From the NCBI RefSeq assembly GCF_026898135.2, contig NZ_CP114035.2, positions 2,273,501 through 2,337,500 of the forward strand: a DNA stretch of 64,000 bases. The letters are read 5' to 3'. The first letter of the stretch is position 1, and every line of letters starts with the position of its first letter. Below, piece by piece: positions 943 to 33,135 of the stretch. The notes beneath the pieces are model-generated. The model made no database searches, was not told the origin of the DNA, and worked only from the letters and a program-made list of their open reading frames with translations. Origin of the DNA: Pseudomonas fortuita (GTDB taxonomy: Bacteria > Pseudomonadota > Gammaproteobacteria > Pseudomonadales > Pseudomonadaceae). The translations under genes and the position numbers were made by a program.

Positions 943-958
943 CGCAAGAGCTGTGCCA
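943..958 (-). promoter_or_regulatory. sigma-54 (-24/-12) promoter of the permease operon
   Basis: On the minus strand this reads TGGCACAGCTCTTGCG, a close match to the sigma-54 consensus TGGCACG-N4-TTGCW with GG and GC ten bases apart. It lies 36 bases upstream of the permease start codon at 907, and an activator-type palindrome lies about 80 bases further upstream at 1021-1036. Confidence 0.8.
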
Positions 959-1020
959 GGGGGCGGGAGCCCCGTATTGCGGGGCTGGAGGGCGAGGGTG
1001 ATGCTTGAGCAGCAGCGAGG

Positions 1021-1036
1021 TGCTGCTACAGCAGCA
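1021..1036. promoter_or_regulatory. TGCTGC-N4-GCAGCA palindrome, putative SfnR-type activator site
   Basis: The sequence TGCTGC-TACA-GCAGCA is a perfect 6+6 inverted repeat with a 4-base spacer. It lies about 80 bases upstream of the sigma-54 promoter at 943-958, a typical enhancer distance. An extra half site (GCAGCA) follows at 1045-1050. The same 16-bp pattern recurs upstream of the other sigma-54 promoters in this window. The link to the SfnR-type protein encoded at 33,255 is inference. Confidence 0.7.
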
Positions 1037-1062
1037 GTCAGTCAGCAGCATCGGTGCTGGAT

Positions 1063-1147
1063 TCTTCGCGGGCATGCCCGCTCCCACAGGATGGCACCCG
1101 TCTGCGAACCTGTGCAGTACCTGTGGGAGCGGGCGAGCCCGCGAAGA
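1063..1147. repeat. Inverted pair of REP elements
   Basis: Two REP copies face each other: tcttcgcgggcatgcccgctcccacagg-like sequence at 1063-1090 and its near reverse complement at 1120-1147. It sits between the stop of the TonB receptor gene (1165) and the activator site of the permease operon, and may end transcription or protect the 3' end of the receptor mRNA. Confidence 0.8.
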
Positions 1148-1164
1148 AGACAACCTGGTTTCAG

Positions 1165-3612
1165 CTAGAAGTCGTAACTCACGCTGGTGTAGTAGAACGC
1201 TCCCTGCGCCCCTTCCGGGCTGGTGATGGAATACTTGGGCACGCCATACAGCTGCGCACCTTCCAGCTTGTCCGGGTGGCTGTCGAACAGGTTGATCGCG
1301 CCCGCCGACAAGGTCAGGCCCAGGTCGAAGCGGTACGACACGTCCAGGTCGGTCACCCACTGCGGGCTGAAGGTCTGGTCCAGCGTGGGGTTGGCAGCGT
1401 TGCGGTTCTTCCATTCACCATAACGGCGCTGGGCCACGGTGACGCTCCAGCCGTCATACAGCCAGTTGGCACTGAGGGTCAGCTTGTCCTCGGGCGTGCC
1501 ATCCTCGATCAGCCCCTGGGTGTTGCGGCCAATGATCTGGTTGCCGGGGATGCTGCCCACATCGTCCAGCCCGGTAATGCGGGTGTTGTTGCGCGCGTAA
1601 CCGCCGTTGAAATCCACGCGCCCCCAGCGGCCCGCATCCAGCTGGTAATGGCCTGCCAGCTCGAAACCGTCGGTGCGGGTGTCGGCAATGTTGGTATAGA
1701 ACGCCGCGCTCTGGATGTTGGCGTAGGGCGTACCGGCGAAGATCGGGCCTACCACCGATGCAGGCAACTGGTCGGACAGGGTGATGCGGTTGTCGATGTC
1801 AATACGGTAGGCGTCGAGTGTGACCGAGGCGTTAGGCAATGGCCGCCAGACCAGGCCCACGGAGAAGTTGGTCGACTCTTCCGGTTTCAGCGTCTTGCCT
1901 CCTAGCAAGGCTGCCTCTGGGCTGTCGGCGCGCAGGGTGCGTTGCTGCACCTCGACCCAGTTGCCACTGCCCGGTGGCTGTTCCACCACCTGCACACTGA
2001 ACGATGACAGCCCGCTCTGCACCAGCGAAGGCGCACGGTAGCCAGTGCTGGCGCTGGCGCGTGCGGCGATCTGCGGGGTGAAGTCGTAGCGCAGCGACAG
2101 CTTGCCGTTGGTGGTATCGCCAAAGTCCGAATAATGCTCGCTGCGCACGGCCACGCCGGCCTGGAATTTTTCGGTCAGCTGGGCTTCGACATCGAAGTAG
2201 GCACCGATCACGCGGCGGTCCAGTGACACGGCATCGACCTGGGTGATGCCCGAGTAGTAGCCAGGGATGCGTCGGCCGGTGATGGGGTCGATCGTATTGA
2301 ACAGCGGCCCGTTGGACCAACCGGCGGCGTCGCCTTCGCTGAGGTCGTAGTGTTCCTGGCGCCAGGCCAGCCCGGCGGAAACGGTCAACGGCTTGAACAG
2401 CCAGTCGTTGGCGAAGTCACGGGTCCAGTCCAGGGTCAGGTTGGTCTGGTCGGCTTCGCGGCGGCCGGTGTAGATGGTCGAGGGGCTTGCGCTGCCCCAG
2501 CTGGGGTTGATGGCGTCGCGGTCGGTGGAGTCGACCCGGTTGTCGCCGTAGTTGAGCGCCAGGTCGAATTTGCCCAGGGCCTGGTCCTCGAAGCGCAAGC
2601 CCCCGGTGACGGCAACGTCTTCCAGGCCGTAGCGGGTGACCGGCAGGCGGCCGTCCGGGTAGCGCGCCAGGGCTACGCTGCCGTAGTTGTTGCGCAGTGT
2701 GGTGGGCGGGTCGAAGAAGTTCTCTGCATCGGTATTCTTGTGCGCATAGGTGGCGAAACCGTAGGCGCTCAGCCCCTCGCTCAAACCCATTTCGGCGTTG
2801 GCAGTGAAGTTGTACTGGTCCGAGACATTGCCCGAACCCCAGCGCCAGTTGCGGTAGCGATTGTTCTGCTCGCGCGGGGTATCGATGCGGGTGGAACCGG
2901 GGTAGAACAGGCGGTTGTCGTCGCGGGTGTCGCTGGCAGGGTCTTGGCTGCCGGCGTCGAAGGCCAGGGTCAGGAAGCCGTCGTTGGGCAAGGCAAAGCC
3001 CTTCCAGCCGCTGAGCTTGCGCTGCAGGCCGTCGCCTTTTTTGTAGCCGCCGAAGCGGTAGCCGGCGTTACCGCCTTCGTCGCGCTCCTTGAGGACAATG
3101 TTGATCACCCCGGCAATAGCGTCCGAGCCGTACTGGGCGGCCGCACCATCGCGCAGGATTTCTACCCGTTCGATGGCCGACAGCGGGATCAGGCTGAGGT
3201 CCACGGCTGCCGCGCCACGGGCGTTGACCAGGCCCTGACGGGTGACGTTGGCACTGGTGTGGCGGCGCTTGCCGTTGACCAGCACCAGCACCTGATCCGA
3301 AGCCAGGCCGCGCAGCGAGGCGCCCTGCGCGATGGAACCGGCAAAGGCGCCCTGGGGCGACTGCGGGAAGCTGAACGAGGGCGAAAGCGCGGTGAGTGCT
3401 GCGGACAGGTCGCTGGCGCCGGTTTCCTGGAGTTTTTCACCGCTCAGCACATCGACCGGGGCGGCGCTTTGCAGGGCGGTGACGTCGCTGCGATGGGTGC
3501 CGACCACGACCACGGTGTCGAGGCGGTCGGCGGGTTCGGCGGCGAATGCGGGCACGGCGAGGCCGGCGATGGTCAGGGCGATGGCGCTGGCCAAGGGGTT
3601 GTGGTGGGGCAT
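1165..3612 (-). CDS. TonB-dependent outer-membrane receptor
   Basis: This 815-aa protein has a signal peptide (about residues 1-24, ending near VPAFAAEP) and a plug domain with a short TonB box-like VVVVGTH near residue 35. The plug body includes EILRDGAAAQYGSDAIAGVINI near residue 155. A 22-strand barrel-type region follows, ending in a C-terminal aromatic residue (SVSYDF), as expected for insertion by BAM. The ATG at 3612 follows AGGAA at a good distance. No STN signalling domain is present, so it is a transporter rather than a transducer. It follows another receptor gene on the same strand across 140 bases containing a REP pair and may be cotranscribed with it. Its place among sulfur genes suggests uptake of a sulfur-containing ligand; an iron-complex role cannot be excluded. 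Confidence 0.9.
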   Translation of the reverse strand: MPHHNPLASAIALTIAGLAVPAFAAEPADRLDTVVVVGTHRSDVTALQSAAPVDVLSGEKLQETGASDLSAALTALSPSFSFPQSPQGAFAGSIAQGASLRGLASDQVLVLVNGKRRHTSANVTRQGLVNARGAAAVDLSLIPLSAIERVEILRDGAAAQYGSDAIAGVINIVLKERDEGGNAGYRFGGYKKGDGLQRKLSGWKGFALPNDGFLTLAFDAGSQDPASDTRDDNRLFYPGSTRIDTPREQNNRYRNWRWGSGNVSDQYNFTANAEMGLSEGLSAYGFATYAHKNTDAENFFDPPTTLRNNYGSVALARYPDGRLPVTRYGLEDVAVTGGLRFEDQALGKFDLALNYGDNRVDSTDRDAINPSWGSASPSTIYTGRREADQTNLTLDWTRDFANDWLFKPLTVSAGLAWRQEHYDLSEGDAAGWSNGPLFNTIDPITGRRIPGYYSGITQVDAVSLDRRVIGAYFDVEAQLTEKFQAGVAVRSEHYSDFGDTTNGKLSLRYDFTPQIAARASASTGYRAPSLVQSGLSSFSVQVVEQPPGSGNWVEVQQRTLRADSPEAALLGGKTLKPEESTNFSVGLVWRPLPNASVTLDAYRIDIDNRITLSDQLPASVVGPIFAGTPYANIQSAAFYTNIADTRTDGFELAGHYQLDAGRWGRVDFNGGYARNNTRITGLDDVGSIPGNQIIGRNTQGLIEDGTPEDKLTLSANWLYDGWSVTVAQRRYGEWKNRNAANPTLDQTFSPQWVTDLDVSYRFDLGLTLSAGAINLFDSHPDKLEGAQLYGVPKYSITSPEGAQGAFYYTSVSYDF

Positions 3613-3752: not shown

Positions 3753-5996
3753 CTAGAACCGGCTGGTAACGCTGAGCCCGACGGTGCGTGGGTCGCCGTA
3801 GGTGATCACGTACTGCCCGGCAGTGCCGTTGGGCCGGCCGTGCACCTGGTAGCGGCGGTCGGTGAGGTTGTTGACGAAACCGGTCACGCTCAGCTTGTCG
3901 TCGTGGCTGAACCAGCTCAGGCGGGCGTTGGCCAACGTGTAGTGCGGCTGGCTGAGGGTTTCGTCGGCGCTGCTCTGGCGGTCGGCCAGGAAGTACTCCT
4001 TGTCACGGAAGCTCACGTCGCCCCCTGCCACCAGTTTGCCGCCCACTTCCAATGGAATGGTGTAGTCGGCGCCAAGCGACACCACGTTGCGCGGCGAACG
4101 CACGAAGCTGTTGCCGCTGTAGTCGCCGGTGACCGCGCCAGTGGTCGGGTTGGTGTTCTTGAAGTCGGTGTATTCGGTGTCGAGGAACGACACCGCCGCG
4201 CGCAGGTGCAGGCGCTCGGTCGGCTGGCCTTCGATCTCCAGTTCCGCACCCTTGACCTTGCCCTTGGCGCCGTTGGTCAGCGCGGTGGTGAGCACGCCGT
4301 TGTTCACCGTCAGCAGGTTCACCTGGATGTCGGAGTAGTCGTAGTAGAAGAGGTTGGCGTTGACGGTCAGGCGGCGGTCGAACCACTCCGACTTCAGCCC
4401 CAGCTCGTAGGCATCCAGCTCTTCCGGGTCGACCGTGGTCAGCTGCGCCAGGCTGGTCGACAGCCCGGTGTTGAAGCCGCCCGAGCGGAAGCCGTGGGCG
4501 TAGCGGAAGAACACCCGCAGGTTGTCATTGATGCGGTACTCGGGCGTCAGGTCGTAGGTCCAGGCTTCCCAGGTCTTGTCTTCCTGGCGATTGCCGTTGG
4601 TGCCCACGCCCGCCAGCGGGATCAGCGGGCCGTTGGCGGTGGCGCGGGTCAGCTGCACCAGGTCCAGGTCGATGTCCTTTTTCTCCTGGGTCCAGCGCAG
4701 GCCGCCCGTGACGCTGAAGTCATCGGTGAAGTCGTAGGTCAGGTTGCCGAACAGCGCGTAGCTGTCGGTGCGGTGATCGAAGCCCATATCGCGCAACGCC
4801 GTGGTGCCCACCTGGTTCGAGCCGGTACCGTTTGGCGTCGGCCCGGGGGTTACCACCCGCTGTGCCGCGCTGTCGAGGTCTTCGTGGAAGTAGTGCGCAC
4901 CCAGCAGCCAGTGCAGCGGGCGGTCTTCCGGCGAGGCCAGGCGCAGCTCCTGCGACCATTGGCGATAGCTGTTGTCGGTGATCGACGCGCCGTTGACCTC
5001 GTAGGGGGTGTAGTCGGCGTCGCTGGTGGAGCGGTTGCGGATGTAGTCGTAGGCGCTGATCGAGGTCAGCGTGTAGTCGCCCAGGTAGTAGTTGAACGTC
5101 AGCGAGGCGCCATCGTGGTCCAGGCGGTAGTCTTCGTTGACGTTCAGCGAGATGTCGCGGCCATGCGGGCGTTCGTAGCCGACGTTGTAGTAGCGGCCCA
5201 CGGGCAGCGAACCATTGCTGCCGTCGCCCTTGAACTGGCGGCTGTGCACCTTGAGCAGGGCGTCCAGGTCGGGGTTGAGCTGGGCCAGGAACTGCAGGCG
5301 GATGGCTTTCTTGTTCACATCGCCATAGGTGTTGCCGTCGAAGTCGTTGTTCTGGAAGCCGTCACGCTCCTCGGAATACAGCGCCACTCGCCCGGCCAGT
5401 TTTTCGTCCACCAACGCGCCGCCGATGGCACCGGTAACGATGCGTTCGTTCTTGCTGCCAAAGCCTACGGTGCCGTAACCGTCGGTGTCGAAGGTGGGTT
5501 TCCTGGAAATCACATTCACTGCACCGGCAGTGGTGTTCTTGCCATACAGGGTGCCTTGTGGCCCACGCAGGATTTCGATGCGCTCCAGGTCAAACAGCGG
5601 CCCGCCGCCAGCGATGGGGGCGTTGAGGTAGACGTCATCGGCGTAGATGCCCACCGGGAAGACCGTTGCCGCGCCGGTGTCGCCGGTGCCCAGGCCGCGG
5701 ATATACCAACGTGGGCGGCCGTCGCCGTCGGGGTTCTTGGCCGAGGCGTTGGGCACGAAGGTGGTGATGTCGCCCATCGAGCGCACCCCATCGGCGGTAA
5801 TGCTGGTGCCTTTGATGGCTGATACGGCCACCGGTACTTCCTGCAAGGTCTGTTCGCGGTGCTGGGCGGTGACGGTGACGGTTTCCAGGGCCGGTTCGTT
5901 TTTAGTGTCTTCGTTGGCGGCGATGGCCTGGCTGCCGGTGCCGGCCAGCAGCAGCGCCAGGCTGATCTGGCGGGCCAGTGGATTGAGCTGGTGCAT
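3753..5996 (-). CDS. TonB-dependent outer-membrane receptor, sigma-54 controlled
   Basis: The product is 747 aa. It has a signal peptide (cleavage near GSQAIAANE), a TonB-box-like ETVTVTAQHREQTLQEVPVA near residue 38, and a plug with ERIEILRGPQGTLYGKNTTAGAVNV near residue 145. A beta-barrel follows, ending in VTSRF. This layout is typical of family receptors that import small organic ligands as well as siderophores. The ATG at 5996 is preceded by GGGGAG. It has its own TGGCACAGTCCCTGCT sigma-54 promoter (6039-6054) and TGCTGC-N4-GCAGCA site (6140-6155), which places it under the same control as the monooxygenase operons. A role in bringing an organosulfur compound across the outer membrane is inferred; TonB-type receptors for sulfate esters are known in Pseudomonas (SftP). 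Confidence 0.9.
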   Translation of the reverse strand: MHQLNPLARQISLALLLAGTGSQAIAANEDTKNEPALETVTVTAQHREQTLQEVPVAVSAIKGTSITADGVRSMGDITTFVPNASAKNPDGDGRPRWYIRGLGTGDTGAATVFPVGIYADDVYLNAPIAGGGPLFDLERIEILRGPQGTLYGKNTTAGAVNVISRKPTFDTDGYGTVGFGSKNERIVTGAIGGALVDEKLAGRVALYSEERDGFQNNDFDGNTYGDVNKKAIRLQFLAQLNPDLDALLKVHSRQFKGDGSNGSLPVGRYYNVGYERPHGRDISLNVNEDYRLDHDGASLTFNYYLGDYTLTSISAYDYIRNRSTSDADYTPYEVNGASITDNSYRQWSQELRLASPEDRPLHWLLGAHYFHEDLDSAAQRVVTPGPTPNGTGSNQVGTTALRDMGFDHRTDSYALFGNLTYDFTDDFSVTGGLRWTQEKKDIDLDLVQLTRATANGPLIPLAGVGTNGNRQEDKTWEAWTYDLTPEYRINDNLRVFFRYAHGFRSGGFNTGLSTSLAQLTTVDPEELDAYELGLKSEWFDRRLTVNANLFYYDYSDIQVNLLTVNNGVLTTALTNGAKGKVKGAELEIEGQPTERLHLRAAVSFLDTEYTDFKNTNPTTGAVTGDYSGNSFVRSPRNVVSLGADYTIPLEVGGKLVAGGDVSFRDKEYFLADRQSSADETLSQPHYTLANARLSWFSHDDKLSVTGFVNNLTDRRYQVHGRPNGTAGQYVITYGDPRTVGLSVTSRF

Positions 5997-6038: not shown

Positions 6039-6054
6039 AGCAGGGACTGTGCCA
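6039..6054 (-). promoter_or_regulatory. sigma-54 promoter of the 747-aa TonB receptor gene
   Basis: The minus strand reads TGGCACAGTCCCTGCT, with GG and GC ten bases apart and only two departures from TGGCACG-N4-TTGCW. The start codon (5996) lies 43 bases downstream. Confidence 0.75.
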
Positions 6055-6106: not shown

Positions 6107-6155
6107 TGCAGATGGGGCAGCAGTGGGGTGCTGGCCGGGTGCTGCTGGGGCAGCA
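6107..6155. promoter_or_regulatory. Tandem putative SfnR-type sites upstream of the TonB receptor
   Basis: A full TGCTGC-TGGG-GCAGCA palindrome occupies 6140-6155. A degenerate copy, TGCAGA-TGGG-GCAGCA, occupies 6107-6122. Their centres are 33 bases apart, about three DNA turns, so two activator dimers could bind the same face. They lie 60-110 bases upstream of the sigma-54 promoter at 6039-6054. Confidence 0.65.
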
Positions 6156-6166: not shown

Positions 6167-6203
6167 GAGATTGTTGGGGCCGCAAAGCGGCCCCAACAAT
6201 CTC
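6167..6203 (-). terminator. Hairpin terminator with a 17-bp perfect stem
   Basis: The arms at 6167-6183 and 6187-6203 are perfect reverse complements around an AAA loop (core GGGGCCGC-AAA-GCGGCCCC). The right arm overlaps the stop codon of the desulfinase-like gene ending at 6202, so it closes that minus-strand operon just before the regulatory sites of the TonB receptor gene. No long T run follows on the minus strand. Confidence 0.8.
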
Positions 6204-7260
6204 AAACCGCCAACCGCGAAGTCGACCCGATCACACTCTCCAGCACACGAAAATCAATCCACTCGCGCACATCGAAACGCCGCGGTATGAACCCCCACCT
6301 GAACAGGAACTCGGTAAAGTCCTGCAGCGCCTCGATCGAGCGGCTGTCCAGGGTAGTACGCAGGCGCCGATGCGCATCATCGCCATAGGCCGCCGCCACC
6401 CAGTACTCGCTGGTGTTCAGCTCGCGCGCCAGAAAGCGCCGGGTCTCTTCCGGGTTAGCCCAGGCCCATTGCTCGGTGCGCAGCACCGTGTCGACCAGCG
6501 TACGGCTGGCATCGAAGTGGTTTTCCAGCAAGTGCCTGTCCACGGTCAGTGTGCGCGGGGTGCCGTTGTTGCTGCGGATCAGCGGGTCCGGATGGCTGCC
6601 GGTGTCGACCACCACGCGCAGGCCGAACTCGTGGGCCAGGTGCACCGCATGCGCACCTTTGAGGAAGATCGCGTCGATGTCGCCACGCAGCAGGCCGATC
6701 AGCTCATTGTTGCGGCGGCTGAAGCGGCTGGTGTCCAGGCTCACTTCAGCACCGTACAGGTGCTGCTTGGCATCGTCGCTGTAGGTGCCGCCGTAGGGGT
6801 AGTCGACCAGTTCCACATCGGCCACCGCCAGGCCTTCGAGCTTCAGGGCGTTTTCCAGCCCGCGCAGGGCCTGGGCGCGGGTGAAGTCGATCTGTACGTT
6901 GGCCCACTTGGGTATGCCGAAACGGCGGTTCTTCAGGTCGCGAATGCTGCGTACGCCGCTTTCTTCGGTGGTGAGGATCAACTGCACCTCATCACTCCAC
7001 GACAGCCCCAGCACGCGGGTCTCGACGCCGCTGGCGTAGGCCCAGATCGCCGGGATGTTACCGCCGTGGCGCACCGAGTTCTGCAGATGATGGTCGTAGT
7101 GGGCTTCACGCACCTCGCGTTCGCTGGACTCGCGCAGCGACTGGATATTGGTGCCAAACGGCGTGAAGGCCTCGGCCAGCCGCCCCGATTGTACGGCGAT
7201 GCCGAGGCCGGTGGGCACGGGGCTGTGGGTGTACCAGAGCGTTTCCAGGGGCTTGGTCAT
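6202..7260 (-). CDS. DszB-like desulfinase paralog with Cys-to-Ser change at the catalytic position
   Basis: The 352-aa protein belongs to the periplasmic-binding-protein-fold family that includes the cytoplasmic 2'-hydroxybiphenyl-2-sulfinate desulfinase DszB. DszB uses Cys27, His60 and Arg70. Here the opening motif is WYTHSPVP, with Ser13 where DszB has SNCPVP. The histidine (EAHYDH, His54) and arginine (SVRHGG, Arg64) keep the 10-residue spacing of DszB. There is no signal peptide, which fits a cytoplasmic enzyme rather than an exported binding protein. The start overlaps the upstream paralog by four bases (ATGA), so the two are translationally coupled. With serine as the nucleophile position it may be inactive, act on a different bond, or partner the Cys-containing paralog. 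Annotation pipelines would call it an ABC substrate-binding protein. Confidence 0.8.
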   Translation of the reverse strand: MTKPLETLWYTHSPVPTGLGIAVQSGRLAEAFTPFGTNIQSLRESSEREVREAHYDHHLQNSVRHGGNIPAIWAYASGVETRVLGLSWSDEVQLILTTEESGVRSIRDLKNRRFGIPKWANVQIDFTRAQALRGLENALKLEGLAVADVELVDYPYGGTYSDDAKQHLYGAEVSLDTSRFSRRNNELIGLLRGDIDAIFLKGAHAVHLAHEFGLRVVVDTGSHPDPLIRSNNGTPRTLTVDRHLLENHFDASRTLVDTVLRTEQWAWANPEETRRFLARELNTSEYWVAAAYGDDAHRRLRTTLDSRSIEALQDFTEFLFRWGFIPRRFDVREWIDFRVLESVIGSTSRLAV

Positions 7261-9533: not shown

Positions 9534-9549
9534 TGCAACGGCTGTGCCA
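9534..9549 (-). promoter_or_regulatory. sigma-54 promoter of the monooxygenase-desulfinase operon
   Basis: The minus strand reads TGGCACAGCCGTTGCA, which departs from TGGCACG-N4-TTGCW at one position only. It is the best -24/-12 element on the minus strand of the window. Confidence 0.85.
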
Positions 9550-9603: not shown

Positions 9604-9651
9604 TGCTGCTGTGGCAGCAGTGCGGCAGCAACGGATGCTGGGGTAGCAGCA
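9604..9651. promoter_or_regulatory. Tandem putative SfnR-type sites of the monooxygenase-desulfinase operon
   Basis: TGCTGC-TGTG-GCAGCA (9604-9619) is perfect and TGCTGG-GGTA-GCAGCA (9636-9651) has one arm mismatch. The centres are 32 bases apart, three helical turns. They lie 55-117 bases upstream of the sigma-54 promoter at 9534-9549. Confidence 0.7.
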
Positions 9652-9903: not shown

Positions 9904-9910
9904 CGACGAG

Positions 9911-15003: not shown

Positions 15004-15019
15004 AGCAATATCTTTGCCA
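15004..15019 (-). promoter_or_regulatory. Candidate sigma-54 promoter toward the SfnB-like gene
   Basis: The minus strand reads TGGCAAAGATATTGCT, keeping GG and GC ten bases apart and the TTGCT end. It is about 42-57 bases from the palindrome at 15061-15076 and 150 bases upstream of the gene it would serve. Confidence 0.6.
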
Positions 15020-15060: not shown

Positions 15061-15099
15061 TGCTGCCTCAGCAGCAGTCATGTTGCTGATCTGGCAGCA
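15061..15099. promoter_or_regulatory. Putative SfnR-type site pair shared by two divergent operons
   Basis: TGCTGC-CTCA-GCAGCA (15061-15076) is perfect. TGCTGA-TCTG-GCAGCA (15084-15099) has one arm mismatch. The centres are 23 bases apart, about two turns. One block lies between a minus-strand sigma-54 element (15004-15019) and a plus-strand one (15184-15199), so it could drive both directions. Confidence 0.7.
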
Positions 15100-15183: not shown

Positions 15184-15199
15184 TGGCACGCACGCTGCA
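15184..15199 (+). promoter_or_regulatory. sigma-54 promoter of the DszB-like/aldolase/importer operon
   Basis: TGGCACGCACGCTGCA departs from TGGCACG-N4-TTGCW at one position only. It lies 34 bases upstream of the start codon at 15233. Confidence 0.82.
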
Positions 15200-16294: not shown

Positions 16295-16312
16295 CCTGAC
16301 TGGAGATTGAAC

Positions 16313-17044: not shown

Positions 17045-17069
17045 TGCGATCGCTGGGGGCGCTTTGCGC

Positions 17070-17148: not shown

Positions 17149-17207
17149 CTGCGCAGCAGCCCCAGAGGCCTGCCCTCAAACACCTCATCTGAAAAGGACC
17201 CAGCCCC

Positions 17208-18395: not shown

Positions 18396-18405
18396 GGAGA
18401 AGGTC

Positions 18406-25059: not shown

Positions 25060-25087
25060 GGCTAAGGCCTTTCAGGTTGAGGAGGAA

Positions 25088-27664
25088 TCAGAATTGGTAA
25101 TCGACCTGGGCCAGCAGCGTGCGGCCCGGCATCGGTTGCAGAAAGGTATTGGTGGACCCGGCCAGGCCACTGACGAAATTCAGCTCGTCGGTGACGTTGA
25201 GCATGCGCACCGTCACGCCCCACTGCGGCTGGCGGTAGTACACGGCAAGATCGAGGTTGTATTCGTCCGGCACTTTCACCGTCTTGCTCAGGTTCAGGTA
25301 CCAGCTGCTGGTCCACCAGCCGGAAAGCTCAACGCCAAACCCTGAGTCGAAGCGGTAGTCGACATACCCGCCAGCGTTGTATTCGGGGATCTGCACCGCA
25401 TCGAACTTGCCGGCCGGGCGCTGGTTGAGGCTGTTGTTTTCGCCAAACACAGTGCCGTTGTCGGGGATGAAGCCGGCCGAGGCAAACCCGGCCTGGCTGG
25501 TGAACTCGTTGTAGGCGCTGATGCGGCTGAGGTTGAGGCCGCCGCGCAGGTGCTGGTCCTGGTAGCGCAGGGTGGCTTCCCAGCCTTTGACGATCAGCCG
25601 GGCAATGTTGTTGTTGCTGTCCGGCGACTGGTCACGGGCCTGCTTGTAGGCAGCCAGGGTGAAGAACAGCTGGTCGGGCACAGCCTCCACCTTCAAACCG
25701 ACCTCATGCAACACGCTCAGGCTCTCGAAGGCCAGTGGGTTGAGCTGGTTGGCCCCCGTGCCGCTGCCCCAGCCCAGGCCGTTGGTGAAGAAGCCGGTAT
25801 TCACTGCGAGGGAACGGTCGAACGTGTAGTACAGCGTGCTGTTTTCCGTGGGTTTGAAATAGGGACTGACCTGCACCGAGAACAGCCGGTAATTATCCGA
25901 GTCCTTGCGCGGGTTGCCGCCGGTCAGCACGAACGGGTTTTCGATGCGGGCGTCGATCCAGCTGCGGCTGGCGCCCACGTTCAGGCCCACACGTTCACCC
26001 AGGCGCAGGTTGTGCTGGCTGAACAGCGTCTGGGTGGTCCAGGTGCTGTCGGCGGTGTAGGGCGCCACCGATTCTGCATACAGACCGTGCCCGGCCGGGT
26101 ACATGGCGGGCAGGTTGAGCCAGCCGTAGTAGCTGGAAAGCTGCGGCACACCGGGTTGGCCGATCCAGGCGGCGTTGCCACCGGCGGGGTTGCGGCCGCT
26201 CAGGCCGAGCAGGTCGCCGGGGTTTTTCAAGGTGGGGTCGAGGGTCAGGTCATAGGCGTTGATGGTGCTGCCGAAGCTGTTGTTGGCGGCGATCGACTCA
26301 TTGCGCTCGCGGCGGTAGATCAGCCCGGTGTTGCTGTCGTCGACCAGGGTCAGGTCGCCCAGTTGCCACTGGCCACGTGCGCGGAATTCGAAGCGGTTGT
26401 CGAAGATGTCGTCCTTGCCCTGCACCTGGAACGCCCCGACGGCATCGGTGGTGTCGGTGGAGTGCTGGTAGAAGGTGCTGTTGGCCAAGGTGATCGACGG
26501 GGTCAGGTCGCCTTCGATGCGCAGTTGCGTGGTAAAGCGCCGCGAACGGTTTTCGTCCTGCGCACGCTGGCCGGTTTGTGACGACAAGGAGGTCAGGCCG
26601 TTGCCCGCCAGCGACGGGTCATAGACCCAGCCCCGCAGGCTGCCGGGGTTGGCCTGCGTATTGGGTGACGCGCCCTGGAAGCTGCCGTTGACCACCTGGT
26701 ACTGGCCCTGGGCATTGCGCTGGCGTTGCACCCAGCCCAGCACCTGGGCATCGGAGGCACCGGAGGACAGCACTGGCGACCACAGTGTATTGCCGTTCTG
26801 GATGACCGGTGTGGCGCGGCCGGCGTAGTACTTGCCGTGGTCGACCAGGTCCTGGGTGGCGCGGTTCCAGCCGTGGGTGATGTTGTAGTCGAAGTAGTCG
26901 TCGTAGGCGGCGTTCCAGTCCACCCGCAGGTTGTCGTTGCGCCAGGCCAGCGCGCCGTAGAAGGCGTCGAAGTTGTTCTCGACATTGTCGTAGAAGTCTT
27001 CCTGGCGCTGGCGGGTGATGCTCACCCGGTAAGCCAGGTTGTCCGTCAGCGGGCCGGTGTTGTCGATGCTGAACTTGGTGGCATCGCGTGATTCGCCATC
27101 GGGGATCCAGCTGCCGATTTCGCCGCTGAGCTTGGTGCGGAAACGGTTGAAGTCAGGCTTCTTGCTCAGGTAGTTGACGTAGCCGCCACTGCCGCTGACC
27201 GAGCCGTAGGTCACCGACGACGGCCCGGCGACGATGTCGGCGCCTTCGTAGGCGTTGAAGTTGGCCGGGTGGCGCACGCCGTAGGCACGCTGGCCATCCT
27301 GGAACACCTCGGTATTCTGCCCGCGCATCTGCGGGGCGATGCCGGCGTTCTGGCCACCGCCGCGGGTGATGCCGGGGGCGTACTTGACCAGGTCGTCGGA
27401 GCTGCGGATCGGGTCGTTGGCCAGTTGCTCGGCGTTGATCTGGGTGACTGAGCGCGGGGTGTCCAGCACCTTGGCTTCCAGGCCGCCATAGATCGAGGCG
27501 GGCGGTCGGGTGGGCAGGGCATCGTCGTCAGTCTGTTCGGCCTGCACCGTGACGGTTTGCAGTTGGGTGTCTTGGGCGTGGGCCAGCGGCGCGCTGGCGG
27601 CCAGCATGGCCAGCGCCAGGGCGCTGGGCGGGAATTTGGGGTGCAGCAAGGTCACGCGGGGCAT
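25088..27664 (-). CDS. TonB-dependent receptor, FhuA/siderophore-type family
   Basis: The 858-aa protein has a signal peptide ending near PLAHAQDTQ, a TonB-box-like QTVTVQAEQ, and a plug with VLDTPRSVTQINAEQLAND, as in the siderophore-receptor subfamily. The C-terminus is aromatic (QVDYQF). The ATG at 27664 is preferred over an in-frame TTG at 27682 because ACGAGG lies just upstream. No STN domain is present. It sits between an orphan Dpp-type binding protein and a monooxygenase, in an operon headed by a SsuA-like protein, so uptake of an organosulfur ligand is likelier than iron. The family also takes up other ligands. Confidence 0.9.
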   Translation of the reverse strand: MPRVTLLHPKFPPSALALAMLAASAPLAHAQDTQLQTVTVQAEQTDDDALPTRPPASIYGGLEAKVLDTPRSVTQINAEQLANDPIRSSDDLVKYAPGITRGGGQNAGIAPQMRGQNTEVFQDGQRAYGVRHPANFNAYEGADIVAGPSSVTYGSVSGSGGYVNYLSKKPDFNRFRTKLSGEIGSWIPDGESRDATKFSIDNTGPLTDNLAYRVSITRQRQEDFYDNVENNFDAFYGALAWRNDNLRVDWNAAYDDYFDYNITHGWNRATQDLVDHGKYYAGRATPVIQNGNTLWSPVLSSGASDAQVLGWVQRQRNAQGQYQVVNGSFQGASPNTQANPGSLRGWVYDPSLAGNGLTSLSSQTGQRAQDENRSRRFTTQLRIEGDLTPSITLANSTFYQHSTDTTDAVGAFQVQGKDDIFDNRFEFRARGQWQLGDLTLVDDSNTGLIYRRERNESIAANNSFGSTINAYDLTLDPTLKNPGDLLGLSGRNPAGGNAAWIGQPGVPQLSSYYGWLNLPAMYPAGHGLYAESVAPYTADSTWTTQTLFSQHNLRLGERVGLNVGASRSWIDARIENPFVLTGGNPRKDSDNYRLFSVQVSPYFKPTENSTLYYTFDRSLAVNTGFFTNGLGWGSGTGANQLNPLAFESLSVLHEVGLKVEAVPDQLFFTLAAYKQARDQSPDSNNNIARLIVKGWEATLRYQDQHLRGGLNLSRISAYNEFTSQAGFASAGFIPDNGTVFGENNSLNQRPAGKFDAVQIPEYNAGGYVDYRFDSGFGVELSGWWTSSWYLNLSKTVKVPDEYNLDLAVYYRQPQWGVTVRMLNVTDELNFVSGLAGSTNTFLQPMPGRTLLAQVDYQF

Positions 27665-27760
27665 TGGCTGGGCCTCGTTCAATAGCAGGAATGTGGGAGA
27701 AGCGAGGGCGCAGCCGCGCCTGCGGTTGGGTGGGTATCTCTCAAGCCTGTCAGGAGGTCC

Positions 27761-27859
27761 GGTGGGAGCGGGCTTGTCCCGCGAACCAGGGCGAAGCCCT
27801 GGCCATGCACCTCTGGTGTCCAGGCGGGCCTATTCGCGGGACAAGCCCGCTCCCACAGG
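27761..27859. repeat. Inverted pair of REP elements with an inner hairpin
   Basis: ggtgggagcgggcttgtccc at 27761 is mirrored by gggacaagcccgctcccaca at 27839-27858, with a small hairpin (ccagggc-gaa-gccctgg) at 27786-27802 inside. It lies in the 218-base gap between two genes of the same strand. No sigma-54 or obvious sigma-70 promoter is seen there. Confidence 0.85.
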
Positions 27860-27882
27860 GGAATAGGCTGTCTTGGGACGGA

Positions 27883-29436
27883 TCAGGTTTTCAGCCACAG
27901 GCTCTCGAACCGCCAGGTACTGAACAGCGACTGCTCGGCCTGCGCGCCACCCACGCGGGTGCTGACGCTGTCGAGCAGGTCGGCAAAGCCCCATATCAGC
28001 ATGCCGCCGCGCTCGTACTGAATGCGTTGCGCCCGGTGTACCAGCGCTTTGCGTTGCTCCAGGTCCGGCTGGGCCATTGCGGCGAGGAAGGCCTCACTGA
28101 ATTCGCGGTCGTGGAAGTGGGTCTTGTTGGCTACAGCAAACGGCGCGTCGGTGTGGATGGCACTGGCCAGGAACGGCGCACCGATGCTGCCGCCGGTACT
28201 CAAGGTCCAGTCGTCGCGCTGCGGGCCCTGGAAGGTGGCCAGGTCGACCTGGCGCACGTTCAGGGTCACGCCGATACGTCGGGCCTGCTCGGCCAATACC
28301 AGGGCCGAAGCCAGCCCCGGCCCTGGTGTGGTCACCAGATCCACCTGCAACTGTTCATGGCCGGCCTGGCGCAGCAACTGCGCCGCACGCTGCGGGTCAT
28401 GAGGGCGCGGGCCAAGGCTGTGGTCGAAGGTGGGGTCGAACGGTGCATACAGGTCGTTCGCCACCCGGCCCTGGCCATTCAGCGCACGGCGCACCAATTC
28501 GTCACGGTCGGCCAGCAGGCGGAATGCTTCCCGTACGCGCGGGTCGTTGAAGGGCGCCTTGGCGGTGTTCATGTCGAACGACAGCCAGTTGCCGCTCACC
28601 GATTTCAGCAGCCGCAGCCGAGGGTCGGCCTGCAGTACCTGCAAGTGCTCGGTGGACATGACGTTGGCCATGTCGATTTGCCCCGCACGCAACGCTGCCA
28701 GGCGGCCGGTCTGGTCCTTGAAGTCGATGATCTCCAGTTCATCGGCGTAGGGCTTGCCGGGCTTGTAGTAGTTGTCGAAGCGGGTGAACAGCGAGCGCTG
28801 GCCTGGGGTGAAGCTTTTCAATTTGTACGGCCCGGCACCGACCGGGTTGGTGACCGGGTGGTAGTCCACCGGTACGATGCCGCCGAAGTTGACCCAGGTT
28901 TCTGCCAGCGGCAGGTAGCTGCGCCCCTCGCGAAAGCCCAGGCGTACGGTGCGGTCGTCCAGCTTGACCAGGTTGTTGCGGTCTACCCAGTGCAGCAGCG
29001 CCGCATAGGGCGAGGCCAGCTGCGGGTCGGTGAGGCGGCGGATGGAAAAGATCAGGTCGTCGGCGTCGATGGTCTTGCCGTGGTGGAATTCCAGCCCCGG
29101 TTTCAGCCGCAAGGTCCAGCTGCTGGCATCGGCATTGGGCTCGGCGAACTCGGCCAGGGCCAGGCGCGGCTGCATCTGCTCGTCCCATTCCCACAGTTTG
29201 CTGTACAGGGCAAAGCCACGCACGATGCCGCTGCCGATGGGCTTGTGGGCGTCGAGGTTGCCGCTCTGGTTGCCGTCGATGATGCCCAGGCGCAAGCGCC
29301 CGCCGTGGCGCGGCTGGTCGGCTGCAGCGTGGGTGGGGCTGTCGGCGGGGCCGCAGCCGGCCAGCAGCCCGCCCGCCAGCACGCCAGCGTGGCCGAGGAA
29401 GCCGCGCCGGCTCAGTGGGTAACCGTCCCTGGCCAT
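27883..29436 (-). CDS. Orphan ABC substrate-binding lipoprotein, family 5
   Basis: The 517-aa protein has a twin-arginine-like SRRGFLGHA followed by lipobox LLAGC (Cys near residue 28). It is a clear paralog of the binding protein at 18406-19977, sharing GGRLR.GIIDG, GNLDAHKP, FAEPNADAS and NPVGAGPYKLKSF. No permease or ATPase accompanies it, so it probably feeds the importer encoded at 19970-23647. The ATG at 29436 lies 4 bases after the stop of the monooxygenase gene. A longer in-frame start would overlap that gene heavily and remove the export signal from the N-terminus. Confidence 0.88.
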   Translation of the reverse strand: MARDGYPLSRRGFLGHAGVLAGGLLAGCGPADSPTHAAADQPRHGGRLRLGIIDGNQSGNLDAHKPIGSGIVRGFALYSKLWEWDEQMQPRLALAEFAEPNADASSWTLRLKPGLEFHHGKTIDADDLIFSIRRLTDPQLASPYAALLHWVDRNNLVKLDDRTVRLGFREGRSYLPLAETWVNFGGIVPVDYHPVTNPVGAGPYKLKSFTPGQRSLFTRFDNYYKPGKPYADELEIIDFKDQTGRLAALRAGQIDMANVMSTEHLQVLQADPRLRLLKSVSGNWLSFDMNTAKAPFNDPRVREAFRLLADRDELVRRALNGQGRVANDLYAPFDPTFDHSLGPRPHDPQRAAQLLRQAGHEQLQVDLVTTPGPGLASALVLAEQARRIGVTLNVRQVDLATFQGPQRDDWTLSTGGSIGAPFLASAIHTDAPFAVANKTHFHDREFSEAFLAAMAQPDLEQRKALVHRAQRIQYERGGMLIWGFADLLDSVSTRVGGAQAEQSLFSTWRFESLWLKT

Positions 29437-29440
29437 GGCG

Positions 29441-30640
29441 TCAGGCCCCGTTGCTGGCGTGCAGTTGCACGGGTTCGGCTGCCGGGCGGGCAAGGGCTGC
29501 GCGCTGCGCACGGAAGTGCGGCAGGATGTGTTCGCCGATGCGGTAGGCCTCTTCCAGGTGCGGGTAGCCGGCGAGGAAGAACAGATCGACACCGATGCCG
29601 TGATACTCGCGGATACGCGCCACCACGTTGGTGTAGCTGCCCACCAGTGCGCAGCCCGGCGGGATGCCGATGTAGCCGAAACCGGTCCACACATTGGGGT
29701 GGATGAAGAAGTCGTCAAAGGCCTGCTGCTGGTCCTGGTCGCTGTAGCCGTGCTCGTAGCTCAGCTTGCGCGCCGTGCGCAGGCCGGCGTGGGCGGCGCG
29801 GGCCTTGACCGTGCCTTTGGCCACGCCTTCGTCGAAGAAGCGCTTGGCCTCGGCCAGCGCGGCTGCTTCGGTCTCGCGTGCGATCACGTCGATGGACAGG
29901 CCAAAGCGGATGTCGGTACGGCCCCACTTCAGCGCCCGGGCGCGGATGTCGGCGATCAGCGCGGCGATCTCGTCCGGGTGCTCGGCGCGCATCAGGTAGA
30001 AATCGGCGTGCTTGGCGGCGAACTCGCGCGCTGCCACCGACGAGCCTGCGGTGCAGATCAGCGGCAGCTCGGCCTTTTTCAGCGGGCCGCGCAGGCCACC
30101 GCCCTCGGCGCGGTAGTAGGTGCCTTCGTAGTGGAACTGCTCGTTGTGCCAATAGCCGCGGACCACGTCCATGAATTCGGTGGCACGGGCGTAGCGCTGG
30201 TCATGGTCTTCAAAGTCGCCCACCTGGCGCTGGATGGCATCGGAACCGCCGTTGATGATGTTCCACACCAGCCGGTTGCCGGTGGCGCGCTGGTAGGTCG
30301 CGGCCTGTTGCACGGCCACCCACGGGGTGTAGTGATAGGGCTGGAACGCGGTGACGAATTTCAGCGTGCGGGTTTCCCGGGCCAGCAGCGAGCACACCGT
30401 CCATGGCTCTTCGCCGGTGGGGGCGTTGACCATCAGTGCGCCGCCAAAGCCGTTTATTTCAGCGGCGCGGGCGATTTGACCGAGGTAGTCGATATAGGTG
30501 AAGTGATCACCCACGGCAAACCCCGACACCGCACCGGTGCTGGGCCCGCCCGCATGCCAGTCGCCGCGGTTGCGCGGGTCGCCGGGGAGGAACTGGGTTT
30601 CGCCATGCAAGGGCAGGCGGGTGAAGAATTCGATGCTCAT
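29441..30640 (-). CDS. LLM-class flavin-dependent monooxygenase, SsuD-like
   Basis: The 399-aa protein starts SIEFFTRLPLHGET and has FNIINGG-type WNIINGGSDAIQRQVGDF near residue 130, LPLICTAGSSVAAREFAAKHADFYLMRAEHPDE near residue 200, and FLAGYPHLEEAYRIGEHILP near the end. The last block is nearly identical to SsuD. The ATG at 30640 follows GTAAGGAGG. It lies between the secreted hydrolase and the orphan binding lipoprotein. In overall layout (an extended N-terminus with RNRGDW) it resembles the enzyme at 8340-9491 more than the other two. Confidence 0.87.
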   Translation of the reverse strand: MSIEFFTRLPLHGETQFLPGDPRNRGDWHAGGPSTGAVSGFAVGDHFTYIDYLGQIARAAEINGFGGALMVNAPTGEEPWTVCSLLARETRTLKFVTAFQPYHYTPWVAVQQAATYQRATGNRLVWNIINGGSDAIQRQVGDFEDHDQRYARATEFMDVVRGYWHNEQFHYEGTYYRAEGGGLRGPLKKAELPLICTAGSSVAAREFAAKHADFYLMRAEHPDEIAALIADIRARALKWGRTDIRFGLSIDVIARETEAAALAEAKRFFDEGVAKGTVKARAAHAGLRTARKLSYEHGYSDQDQQQAFDDFFIHPNVWTGFGYIGIPPGCALVGSYTNVVARIREYHGIGVDLFFLAGYPHLEEAYRIGEHILPHFRAQRAALARPAAEPVQLHASNGA

Positions 30641-30652
30641 GGGTTGGCCTCC

Positions 30653-31876
30653 TTACTGGACGCTTGGGCTGCAATTGGGGGTGACCGGCTGGCCGCTGAT
30701 GACCTGGCGGGCGAAGGGGATCGAGTCCTTCAGCGAGGCATTCACCGTTTCGCTGTGGCCCAGGCCCTTGTAAAGGTGGCCCTGCACCACCGAGCCGGCC
30801 TTGCAGGCGTCCTGCATCAGCGCCACTTGGGTAGCGGCGGCGGGGGTCTTGTCCTCGGCGCCGGTGCCGATGAAGATCGGCTGGGCCAGTTTCAGGGTCG
30901 GGTACGACACCTGCGCCAGCCATGGCTTGAGCTGGTCGCCCTTGTAGTCTTTCTTGGCGTTGGCCGGGGTCAGGCCTGTGCCGACCACGTCGCTGACCAA
31001 GGCTGACAGGCAGCTGGTGCGCGCCTGCTCGAACAGCGGCAAGGCCTTGTCGGTGTAGAAGTCGCGCGGGTCGATGTTTGGGTCGTACTGCTGCGCAGCC
31101 AGCAGGGTGTAGAAGCCATAGGCCAGGGCCGGGTCGACCTTGTCCTGGTCTTGTTCACCGACATTCTTCGAGCCCACGGTGTAGATCACCCCCGTGCCGA
31201 TACTGCCCTTGACGCCCAGCTTGGGCGCATAGGTCGCCGCATAGGCACCGGCGGCAAAGGCCCCGGCGCCGCCTTGCGACTGGCCAATGATCAGCACCTT
31301 GTCTGCCAGCCCTGGCACGCCGGCGACCACCGCCTTGGCCGCATCGAGAATGCCGTAGGCGGCCATGCGGTTGTTCAGCAGCGGGTGGCCACCCGGTACA
31401 CCGAGGCCTTGGTAGTCGGTGGCGACGATGGCGTAGCCCTCATCGAGCCAGCGGTTGAGGTATTGCACATCGCGGTAGCTGCGGCCAGCCCAGGACGGTG
31501 CGCAGATATCTGCCACGCCGACGGTGCCGTGGCCCCAGCTGGCGACCGGCCAGCCGCCTGCCGGTGCCTGGCCTTTGGGAATGAACAGTGCGCCGGACAC
31601 CACGATCGGGGTCTTGCCGTCGATACCATCCAGCGAGGTGTAGAGAATGCGTTGCGCGCTGGCTGCGTTGGGCAGGCTGAGTGCCTGGTCCAGCGGTTCG
31701 CTGCGCAGCAGTTTACCGGGCGTGCCGGGGATGGCCTTGCTCCAGGTGTAGAAGGCCGACACACGGCCATCGCCCTGCTGCGGATCAGGTTTGGGTGCGT
31801 AGGTTTCGGCGGCCATGGCACCGATGGACAGGGCCAGGGCGCTGAGGCCGAAGACGAGCGAAGCAGGCAGTTTCAT
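30653..31876 (-). CDS. Secreted alpha/beta hydrolase, secretory lipase (LIP) family
   Basis: The 407-aa protein has a signal peptide (SALALSIGAMAAE) and an alpha/beta-hydrolase core. The nucleophile elbow is GQSQGG, near residue 200. Aspartate and histidine candidates follow in GTGAEDKTP and GLGHSETV. Family members hydrolyse lipids or other esters outside the cytoplasm. The ATG at 31876 begins the signal peptide; longer in-frame starts would overlap the binding-protein gene. It is second in the operon after a SsuA-like binding protein. In that setting it may free a sulfur-containing acid or alcohol from an ester before uptake; this is inference. Confidence 0.85.
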   Translation of the reverse strand: MKLPASLVFGLSALALSIGAMAAETYAPKPDPQQGDGRVSAFYTWSKAIPGTPGKLLRSEPLDQALSLPNAASAQRILYTSLDGIDGKTPIVVSGALFIPKGQAPAGGWPVASWGHGTVGVADICAPSWAGRSYRDVQYLNRWLDEGYAIVATDYQGLGVPGGHPLLNNRMAAYGILDAAKAVVAGVPGLADKVLIIGQSQGGAGAFAAGAYAATYAPKLGVKGSIGTGVIYTVGSKNVGEQDQDKVDPALAYGFYTLLAAQQYDPNIDPRDFYTDKALPLFEQARTSCLSALVSDVVGTGLTPANAKKDYKGDQLKPWLAQVSYPTLKLAQPIFIGTGAEDKTPAAATQVALMQDACKAGSVVQGHLYKGLGHSETVNASLKDSIPFARQVISGQPVTPNCSPSVQ

Positions 31877-31887
31877 GGGTAAGGCTC

Positions 31888-32961
31888 TCAAGGTTGTTGG
31901 CTGATCTGGGCGTCGAGGGACGGCCAGTAGTGGGTCAGTTGCAGGTCGATCAGCGCCTGGCGGGTAAAGCCTGTGGCCAGGTCGCTGGTAATGTCGTAGG
32001 GCGTGCGGATCAGCCGGTTGGCCAGGGCGTACTGGCCCAGGGCGTCGTAGTGGGCCTTGAGCTGGGCATCGCTTTTCGGTGCCCAGCGCGCCTTCCACAC
32101 GACCGGGTCGTCATGGTCGTCCCGGCGCAGCACGCTTTCGCTCACACCGGCGCGCGAAGACAACCCGTAGTAGGCGTCGCGGTTCTGCTCCTGAGAAATC
32201 CACCAGGCGGCGCGCACCCAGGCGGTGGCCACCAGCTGCGTCAGGTCGGCGTGCTGCTGCACGAAGCGGTCAGTGCCCCACAGGTCCGACACCAGCCGCC
32301 AGTCGTTGGCGCCTTGCTTGGTCGACCAGAGGATGCGCGCCACGCCTTTGTCTTCCAGGGCATAGGCTTCGTTGAGCAGCACGGCAGCGTCGACCTTGCC
32401 GGCGGACACCGCAGCCGCGCCTACTTGCGGGTTGAGGTTGGCGATCTTGAAATCACTGAGTGCCAGGCCCTGGCTTTGCAGGAAATTGCTGAAGGCGAAC
32501 TCCCATGGGCGGCCGCGGTGCAAAGCCAGGCGCTTGCCTTTGAGGTCCTGAATGCTGCGCACCGTCGAGTTGCTCGGTACTACCAGGTAGATGTTGTTGC
32601 CGCTGCCACCCGGTACCACCAGCTTGCCCGGCACCTGGCCGGCGCCGGCGATGACCGAGGGCAGGTCGCCGCGTACGGCAAAGTCCAGGCTGTCGTTGCT
32701 GAAGCCTTCGTTGATCTGCGGCCCGGCGCCGGCATGCGGCAGGGCGGTCCATTGCAGTTTCACGCCGCGGGCGGCCAGTTGCTGTTCCAGCCAGCCTTCT
32801 TCAATCACCCGCCCCGGGATGCCGCCGAACACCGGGGCGCCACCCTGGGTGAAGGCAACAATGGCGATGCGCACCGCCGCCGGTGGCTCGGCGGCCAGCG
32901 CAGTCAGGCTAAGGAACAGGCCGCCCAGCAGGGCGAGGGCATTACGCCAGGGATTGTTCAT
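31888..32961 (-). CDS. ABC substrate-binding protein, SsuA/TauA/NrtA type
   Basis: The 357-aa protein has a signal peptide ending near LSLTALAAE. The body has a SsuA-like fold: GWLEQQLAARGVKLQW, NEGFSNDSLDFAVRGDLPSVIAGA, GNNIYLVVPSNSTVRSIQDLKGKRLALHRG, and AAVSAGKVDAAVLLNE. Such proteins deliver sulfonates or sulfate esters to SsuC-type permeases. No permease lies in this operon; the pair at the left edge of the window may be its partner. It is the first gene of the run, 34 bases downstream of a sigma-54-like element and near a perfect TGCTGC-N4-GCAGCA site. Confidence 0.88.
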   Translation of the reverse strand: MNNPWRNALALLGGLFLSLTALAAEPPAAVRIAIVAFTQGGAPVFGGIPGRVIEEGWLEQQLAARGVKLQWTALPHAGAGPQINEGFSNDSLDFAVRGDLPSVIAGAGQVPGKLVVPGGSGNNIYLVVPSNSTVRSIQDLKGKRLALHRGRPWEFAFSNFLQSQGLALSDFKIANLNPQVGAAAVSAGKVDAAVLLNEAYALEDKGVARILWSTKQGANDWRLVSDLWGTDRFVQQHADLTQLVATAWVRAAWWISQEQNRDAYYGLSSRAGVSESVLRRDDHDDPVVWKARWAPKSDAQLKAHYDALGQYALANRLIRTPYDITSDLATGFTRQALIDLQLTHYWPSLDAQISQQP

Positions 32962-32994
32962 GTGCAGCTCCAGGCAAAGGTTCTACAGGCCAGG

Positions 32995-33010
32995 AGCGAA
33001 ATGCATGCCA
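32995..33010 (-). promoter_or_regulatory. Candidate sigma-54 promoter of the SsuA-like operon
   Basis: The minus strand reads TGGCATGCATTTCGCT, with GG and GC ten bases apart and two departures from consensus (T for C, TCGC for TTGC). The spacing to the start codon (34 bases) equals that of the other sigma-54 operons here. Confidence 0.6.
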
Positions 33011-33086
33011 GCATGCCTTGAAGTGGCGCAAGCCCCCTATTTACAGGGCCTCCAGCCATGAGCACGTAGGTGTGCAAGGCAAGGTC

Positions 33087-33135
33087 TGCTGATCGGCGGG
33101 CAGGGGAGTGCTGACGGGTTGCTGCTGTGGCAGCA
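33087..33135. promoter_or_regulatory. Putative SfnR-type site(s) between the SsuA-like operon and sfnR
   Basis: TGCTGC-TGTG-GCAGCA at 33120-33135 is perfect and identical to the site at 9604-9619. A weak copy, TGCTGA-TCGG-CGGGCA, lies at 33087-33102, 33 bases away centre to centre. It could serve the minus-strand operon, and the same site lies about 120 bases before the activator gene, so self-control is possible. Confidence 0.65.

Follow-up and report, generated by a model that had tools for sequence, protein, structure and literature searches.

Gene island, palindromes and promoters

The window analysed here is a stretch of 64,000 nucleotides of Pseudomonas fortuita (NCBI RefSeq assembly GCF_026898135.2, contig NZ_CP114035.2, positions 2,273,501 to 2,337,500 of the forward strand), and its first 33 kb hold an organosulfur gene island with a sigma-54 activator gene at its edge. 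The perfect palindrome TGCTGC-N4-GCAGCA was found in this island at 1021, 6140, 9604, 15061 and 33120, in all five cases in between called genes, and each of the five sites faces a match to the -24/-12 promoter pattern of sigma-54 (TGGCAC-N5-TTGC), which confirms both the positions and the pairing with promoters given in a preliminary description of the sequence. Genes were called with a codon-score caller and functions were assigned by Pfam/NCBIfam profile searches. Six transcription units, whose limits were drawn from gene order, are suggested with one promoter-operator set apiece. The six promoters could thereby account for every unit of the 33-kb island, in line with the earlier statement that they cover nearly all of its operons. 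The promoters, the palindromes as predicted operators, the second operator copies and the activator gene are as follows (ABC, ATP-binding cassette).

944..958, minus strand: sigma-54 promoter P1, TGGCACAGCTCTTGC, exact match, upstream of the ABC permease gene and of genes left of the window
999..1014, no strand: second operator copy of P1, 1 mismatch, 22 bp from the main site
1021..1036, no strand: palindrome, operator of P1, perfect match, intergenic
6040..6054, minus strand: sigma-54 promoter P2, TGGCACAGTCCCTGC, 1 mismatch, upstream of two TonB-dependent receptor genes
6107..6122, no strand: second operator copy of P2, degenerate, 2 mismatches, 33 bp from the main site
6140..6155, no strand: palindrome, operator of P2, perfect match, intergenic
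9535..9549, minus strand: sigma-54 promoter P3, TGGCACAGCCGTTGC, exact match, upstream of the monooxygenase and two binding-protein genes
9604..9619, no strand: palindrome, operator of P3, perfect match, intergenic
9636..9651, no strand: second operator copy of P3, 1 mismatch, 32 bp from the main site
15005..15019, minus strand: sigma-54 promoter P4, TGGCAAAGATATTGC, 1 mismatch, upstream of the SfnB-like oxidoreductase gene and the ABC exporter pair
15061..15076, no strand: palindrome between the divergent P4 and P4', perfect match, intergenic
15084..15099, no strand: second operator copy of P4/P4', 1 mismatch, 23 bp from the main site
15184..15198, plus strand: sigma-54 promoter P4', TGGCACGCACGCTGC, 1 mismatch, upstream of 15233-23647
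32996..33010, minus strand: sigma-54 promoter P5, TGGCATGCATTTCGC, weak, 2 mismatches, kept in related loci
33087..33102, no strand: second operator copy of P5, degenerate, 4 mismatches, 33 bp from the main site
33120..33135, no strand: palindrome, operator of P5, perfect match, at a conserved place upstream of the activator gene
33165..33223, plus strand: AT-rich block upstream of the activator gene, conserved in the alignment, possibly a CysB/sigma-70 region
33255..34313, plus strand: orphan sigma-54 activator, SfnR paralogue, SfnR2-like, 352 amino acids, with AAA+ domain and C-terminal helix-turn-helix

The offsets of the second copies were measured start to start. Degenerate second copies had been noted before, and this holds for four sites (22, 33, 32 and 23 bp; at most 2 mismatches), whereas the copy at the fifth site, that of P5, has 4 mismatches; its TG.TG...CA skeleton is conserved across an alignment of 42 sequences, in which the P5 blocks are prominent as well. 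A divergent promoter 100-300 bp upstream of the activator gene (at most 2 mismatches, GG and GC exact) is kept in 65 of 80 related loci.

Against the five palindromes of the first 33.3 kb, 300 dinucleotide shuffles of this stretch yielded 0.03 on average and never more than 1. Genome-wide (6.31 Mb), 12 perfect palindromes were counted, compared to 4 for a reversed control, and from the genomic background rate 0.037 palindromes would be expected in 33.3 kb (P ~6e-10). The seven copies outside the window are all located inside called coding sequence, and no match to TGGCAC-N5-TTGC with up to 1 mismatch occurs within 300 bp of any of them. The promoter pattern alone is hardly enriched (137 matches at up to 2 mismatches in the window, 122.7 expected; 5 of 100 shuffles reach 137), and two more exact matches in the window, at 21766 inside a gene and at 39784, have no adjoining palindrome. 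The significance therefore rests on the pairing of palindrome and promoter.

Conservation and geometry of the sites

For the comparison, 149 genomes of the same genus were used. The activator-locus set consisted of the best 80 of 218 loci found (1.60 Mb in total), and the island set of 41 stretches from 21 genomes, i.e., window positions 1-33300 and 40 others, some of which extend past the island (95 kb intergenic and 661 kb coding, 87% of bases being coding). A site was defined as TGYTGC-N4-GCARCA, intergenic regions were counted if they had at least 80 bp, and sigma-54 matches were accepted at up to 1 mismatch.

The 80 activator loci contain 68 perfect TGCTGC-N4-GCAGCA words and no perfect reversed control; at up to 1 mismatch the numbers are 179 and 13. 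In 68 of the 80 loci, the activator gene is preceded by a site at this threshold within 260 bp; these sites have 17 different spacers. In the 41 stretches, perfect sites are almost exclusively intergenic (65 intergenic, 1 coding) and one-mismatch sites predominantly so (50 intergenic, 24 coding), while the reversed control yielded no perfect match and 15 one-mismatch words, all of them coding. Moreover, a sigma-54 match is present in 53 of 71 site-bearing intergenic regions compared to 5 of 170 site-free ones, and for 91 of the 115 intergenic sites a promoter in the right orientation lies at a distance of 40-200 bp. Wrong-way pairs of site and promoter were encountered only twice, a scarcity that is partly expected from gene orientation.

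These data bear on the view that the palindromes are chance words, hairpins of terminators or repeats similar to repetitive extragenic palindromic (REP) elements, whose probability is negligible. The seven perfect copies in coding sequence do show that the palindrome occurs without promoters; however, chance and terminators as explanations were rejected by the shuffles (0.03 on average, 5 observed) and by the fact that none of 34 convergent intergenic regions, in which terminators would be common, holds a site. A repeat or hairpin is furthermore at odds with spacers that vary while the arms are kept.

Measured from centre to centre, the site-to-promoter distances form clusters near 56, 68, 79, 89, 99, 111, 120 and 131 bp. 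Taking the nearest site for each distinct promoter (n=43), the vector length R is 0.57 at a period of 10.5 bp; it is 0.58 at 10.8 bp for the 104 distinct promoter-distance pairs and 0.45 at 10.8 bp for the 52 distinct integer distances from a wider set of 115 pairs, whose observed R of 0.60 was matched by none of 5000 jitter controls. This phasing and the pairing of sites at 22, 23, 32 or 33 bp fit activator dimers that are placed on one face of the DNA and loop to the polymerase. As their arms stay constant while the spacers vary, and as they are helically phased, the sites offer a usable model of enhancer geometry at sigma-54 promoters.

The window-type activator (83-100% identity) and the island monooxygenase encoded at 8340-9491 (E<=1e-150) are present in the same 21 of the 149 genomes, and the SfnB-like gene was found in 14 of these 21 and in no other genome of the set. 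Counted over whole genomes, sites are more numerous where the activator is present (18.5 in the 21 genomes, compared to 14.3 in the others; P=2e-4), which lends weak support, because many of these copies are probably coding background.

The activator and its SfnR paralogue

The protein encoded at 33255 contains a Sigma54_activat domain (PF00158, E=8.7e-71) followed by AAA_lid_14, and at its C-terminus a weak HTH_30 match under its cut-off, with a conserved SRN motif. With the AAA+ domain and the C-terminal helix-turn-helix, and with predicted operators that precede their -24/-12 promoters with a workable phase, it shows the features of the family of bacterial enhancer-binding proteins. No sensor domain was found by Pfam, so that its activity would probably be set by its amount. 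The genome encodes 23 strong and 3 weak Sigma54_activat matches, of which two open frames of about 370 codons form an SfnR-like pair. The second gene of the pair is located at C1:3798275-3799375, 1.5 Mb from the window activator, and follows a gene for an MsuE-type flavin mononucleotide (FMN) reductase, which at 251 bits exceeds the NCBIfam cut-off of 212.5, and one for an SfnB/DszC-related oxidoreductase.

The possibility that the gene at 33255 is itself the sfnR of an sfnECR-type operon was rejected, since the msuE-sfnC-sfnR operon lies at C1:3.80 Mb and the two activators are 62% identical. The gene at 33255 adjoins an SsuA-like operon instead of msuE/sfnE and sfnC/msuC, and among the 149 genomes two separated groups are formed, with 83-100% identity to the 33255 protein for the window type (21 genomes) and 59-64% for the SfnR type, a grouping that is based on identity values and not on a tree. 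What had been described as an SfnR-type activator at the island edge is thus an SfnR-type sigma-54 activator, but a paralogue and not SfnR itself. Proteins up to 99% identical are encoded in named Pseudomonas relatives, and in P. aeruginosa PA7 (locus L158) an 82%-identical gene is located upstream of msuE-msuD-msuC-SfnR. From synteny and by elimination, the clade of the window activator is probably that of P. aeruginosa SfnR2.

An additional sigma-54 match in P. sichuanensis (L144), TGGCACGCTCATCGC, is in forward orientation and directed at the activator gene itself, which suggests a possible autoactivation in that species.

Reader of the palindromes

As judged from the sequence comparisons, the palindromes very probably serve as upstream activating sequences for the product of 33255-34313, an orphan sigma-54 activator of the SfnR2-like clade. 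Dimers of this activator would bind two operators 22-33 bp apart and assemble the AAA+ ring there. From this place the sigma-54 polymerase at the promoters would be reached over about 55-190 bp, preferably in steps of about 10.5-10.8 bp, and all six island units would be turned on. The amount of the activator would most likely be raised via CysB during sulfate limitation; by analogy to known systems, CysB may control the activator gene, and the island may be induced under sulfate limitation in dependence on the activator. The earlier proposal of a shared sigma-54 enhancer over the organosulfur island is well supported, while the reader it named, SfnR, is most likely to be replaced by the paralogue: the operator type is that of SfnR, yet in this island it belongs most likely to the activator at the edge. 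An entire organosulfur-scavenging island is thereby given a concrete predicted operator, a list of targets and a likely reader.

The strongest competitor is SfnR itself, encoded in the msuE-sfnC-sfnR operon, which might be the main reader of the palindromes or share them equally with the edge paralogue; we regard this as rather unlikely. The degree of identity between the two proteins and the likeness of their helix-turn-helix motifs (SRNIVRARL and SRN[VI]TR[TSA]RL) would allow both to read the same sites, and the two site types differ at one base per half-site only. However, four of the 21 genomes with island monooxygenase and activator have neither an SfnR-type match (E<=1e-120) nor sfnG (E<=1e-180) and still keep 15 island sites together, although a more diverged SfnR below this threshold is possible in them. 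Moreover, 73 of the 149 genomes have an SfnR-type match and neither the window-type activator nor the island monooxygenase.

The sites at the genes of the SfnR system also differ in type. sfnG is present in 66 genomes, from which 30 loci were examined together with 7 distinct msuE/sfnE loci, using the best site per locus. At up to 1 mismatch, 20 of the 30 sfnG loci have an upstream site, 19 with T/A and 1 with C/A at the third base of the two arms, and the msuE/sfnE loci comprise 5 T/A and 2 C/A sites. These sites are mostly TGTTGC-N4-GCAACA, whereas the island sites are mostly TGCTGC-N4-GCAGCA. Scored per half-site, the ratio of C to T is 183:45 in the island (T in 45 of 228), 1:39 at sfnG and 2:12 at msuE/sfnE. 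Two additional sites were not counted in this comparison, one of the T/A type at sfnG in L256 and one of the C/G type with one mismatch, which lies 35 bp upstream of msuE in L156. The presumed recognition helix, placed by motif and not by structure, reads SRNIVRARL in 112 of 114 matches of the window type (the others being SRNVVRARL and one false pattern match) and SRN[VI]TR[TSA]RL in 18 of 18 matches of the SfnR type, with overlapping loci among these counts, which are hence not numbers of distinct proteins. Taken together, this suggests a paralogue-specific operator preference differing by one base pair per half-site.

A more far-reaching proposal is that the sister activators split one operator, with SfnR preferring TGTTGC-N4-GCAACA and the island activator TGCTGC-N4-GCAGCA, matching the Val/Thr change in the helix. 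We put this forward tentatively and would sooner expect it to fail than to hold. The reported role of SfnR2 in dimethyl sulfide use in P. aeruginosa would imply action at T-type sites, which speaks against such a split, as does sfnG of PA7, for which neither a site nor a promoter was found at up to 2 mismatches in 400 bp; msuE of PA7 carries the site TGTTGCCCGGGCAACA. Five of the 68 activator-upstream sites, being of the T/A type in both halves (L096, L131, L147, L156 and L159), speak against it as well; those of L147, L156 and L159 coincide with the site of a divergent msuE. T half-sites account for 10 of 30 in genomes without an SfnR match compared to 35 of 198 in those with one (Fisher P=0.05, Mann-Whitney P=0.06); a relaxation of the C preference in SfnR-less genomes is a trend only, and this likewise speaks against the split. 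If the split were true, a patchily inherited, large island would be controlled by an activator of its own, cross-talk with the core dimethyl-sulfone system would stay limited, and the paralogue pair offers a case of operator divergence that is testable base by base.

An unrelated regulator or a repressor sharing these promoters is an improbable reader. The genome encodes 23 strong Sigma54_activat matches besides other regulators, which leaves candidates; against them, the palindrome lies directly upstream of genes of the 33255 type in 68 of 80 loci, is in phase with sigma-54 promoters and is of the same type as the sites at sfnG and msuE/sfnE.

Several observations weigh against the assignment of the palindromes to the activator at 33255. 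In 12 of the 80 activator loci, PA7 included, there is no upstream site at up to 1 mismatch, 10 of the 30 sfnG loci have none at this threshold, and 18 of the 71 site-bearing regions have no sigma-54 promoter at up to 1 mismatch; in the window itself P5 is a weak match with 2 mismatches. The activator and the monooxygenase are mostly linked, so that their co-occurrence may be plain co-inheritance, and the orthologues are not independent of each other, so that the P values overstate. In the phasing test, the jitter controls scanned periods on a coarser grid (0.2 bp) than was used for the observed value (0.1 bp). Finally, in G032, the one single-contig genome with activator and monooxygenase far apart (0.6 Mb), the activator match does not begin before residue 19 and is preceded by an unrelated upstream region, each of the degenerate monooxygenase sites carries 2 mismatches, and the two stretches contain no site at up to 1 mismatch.

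The activator locus of this genome (L248, G032:C1:1062000-1081999) differs in both the N-terminus of the activator and its upstream region; possibly the island in G032 is decaying or rewired.

Relation to known systems

Regulation of sulfur scavenging by sigma-54 enhancers is a kind already known. SfnR of Pseudomonas putida DS1 is reportedly a sigma-54 activator of sfnFG, as described by Endoh in 2003 and 2005 and in a 2007 paper on sfnA, and it is said to be CysB-regulated according to a paper title. The protein encoded at 33255 resembles it as a stand-alone AAA+ activator that would act on sigma-54 promoters of organosulfur genes with the operator architecture TGYTGC-N4-GCARCA, and differs from it as a 62% identical paralogue in a genome that has its sfnECR-type gene elsewhere, with island sites mostly of the C/G type. 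For P. aeruginosa, Lundgren in 2019 reportedly found that SfnR2 governs the use of dimethyl sulfide. The likeness to SfnR2 lies in the clade, which includes the 82%-identical gene beside msuE-msuD-msuC-sfnR in PA7; unlike SfnR2, which flanks msu in P. aeruginosa, the activator at 33255 is located at a different and larger island. NtrC-type enhancer-binding systems use paired palindromic enhancers in a helix-phased distance to -24/-12 promoters. In contrast to these, the activator at 33255 has no receiver domain and another operator sequence.

In P. aeruginosa, sfnR1 and sfnR2 are both stated to group with msu (PMC8234197), and PA2354 is labelled SfnR1 (PMC8274868). The literature searches returned no description of this operator or regulon, the main SfnR and SfnR2 papers being outside their coverage, so that it may already be in print.

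Gene content of the island and neighbouring features

The transcription units of the island comprise the following genes.

155..907, minus strand: ABC transporter permease (BPD_transp_1, profile match), P1 unit
1165..3612, minus strand: TonB-dependent receptor (profile match), P2 unit
3753..5996, minus strand: TonB-dependent receptor (profile match), P2 unit
6202..8321, minus strand: two substrate-binding proteins (profiles and sequence likeness), P3 unit
8340..9491, minus strand: luciferase-like monooxygenase dependent on reduced FMN (FMNH2), SsuD-like, below the SsuD and SfnG equivalog cut-offs, P3 unit
9911..13505, minus strand: two ABC exporter-type genes (ABC_membrane and ABC_tran), P4 unit
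13622..14854, minus strand: SfnB-like oxidoreductase of the acyl-CoA-dehydrogenase type (396 bits, cut-off 430.9), P4 unit
15233..23647, plus strand: presumed P4' transcription unit (gene order, profiles)
23971..32961, minus strand: presumed P5 transcription unit (gene order, profiles)

In the P3 unit the binding protein encoded at 7257-8321 matches NMT1/SsuA, and that at 6202-7260 gave no Pfam match, though its N-terminus resembles that of the former. The P4' unit contains genes for an NMT1-type binding protein, a class II aldolase domain protein, a luciferase-like monooxygenase and an oligopeptide-type ABC transporter. The P5 unit encodes an SsuA-type binding protein, a secretory-lipase-like protein, an SBP_bac_5 protein, two luciferase-like monooxygenases and a protein with a TonB-receptor plug domain. 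None of the four island monooxygenases scanned reaches the SsuD or SfnG equivalog cut-off. The class II aldolase domain protein (16313-17044) and the secretory-lipase-like protein (30653-31876) are encoded among monooxygenase genes, hinting at a side-chain cleavage before or after desulfonation.

Tandem SfnB-family genes, both above the equivalog cut-off, were found at L072/L073 (G000:C1:273438-275933); in the stretches read, a single word similar to TGCTGC-N4-GCAGCA occurs, at two mismatches, and sigma-54 matches with fewer than 2 mismatches are absent. In the window, the word TGGGAGCGGGCTTGC / TGGGAGCGGCCTTGC is repeated at 9677-9691, 9730-9744, 9803-9817, 9876-9890, 17122, 23711, 23853 and 39756; it looks like part of a REP-type repeat and appears as a false sigma-54 match. 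Downstream of the activator gene, an extracytoplasmic function (ECF)-type sigma factor (35062-35538), a FecR protein (35542-36486) and a TonB receptor (36675-39161) are encoded, and this trio at 35062-39161 is a separate cell-surface signalling set.

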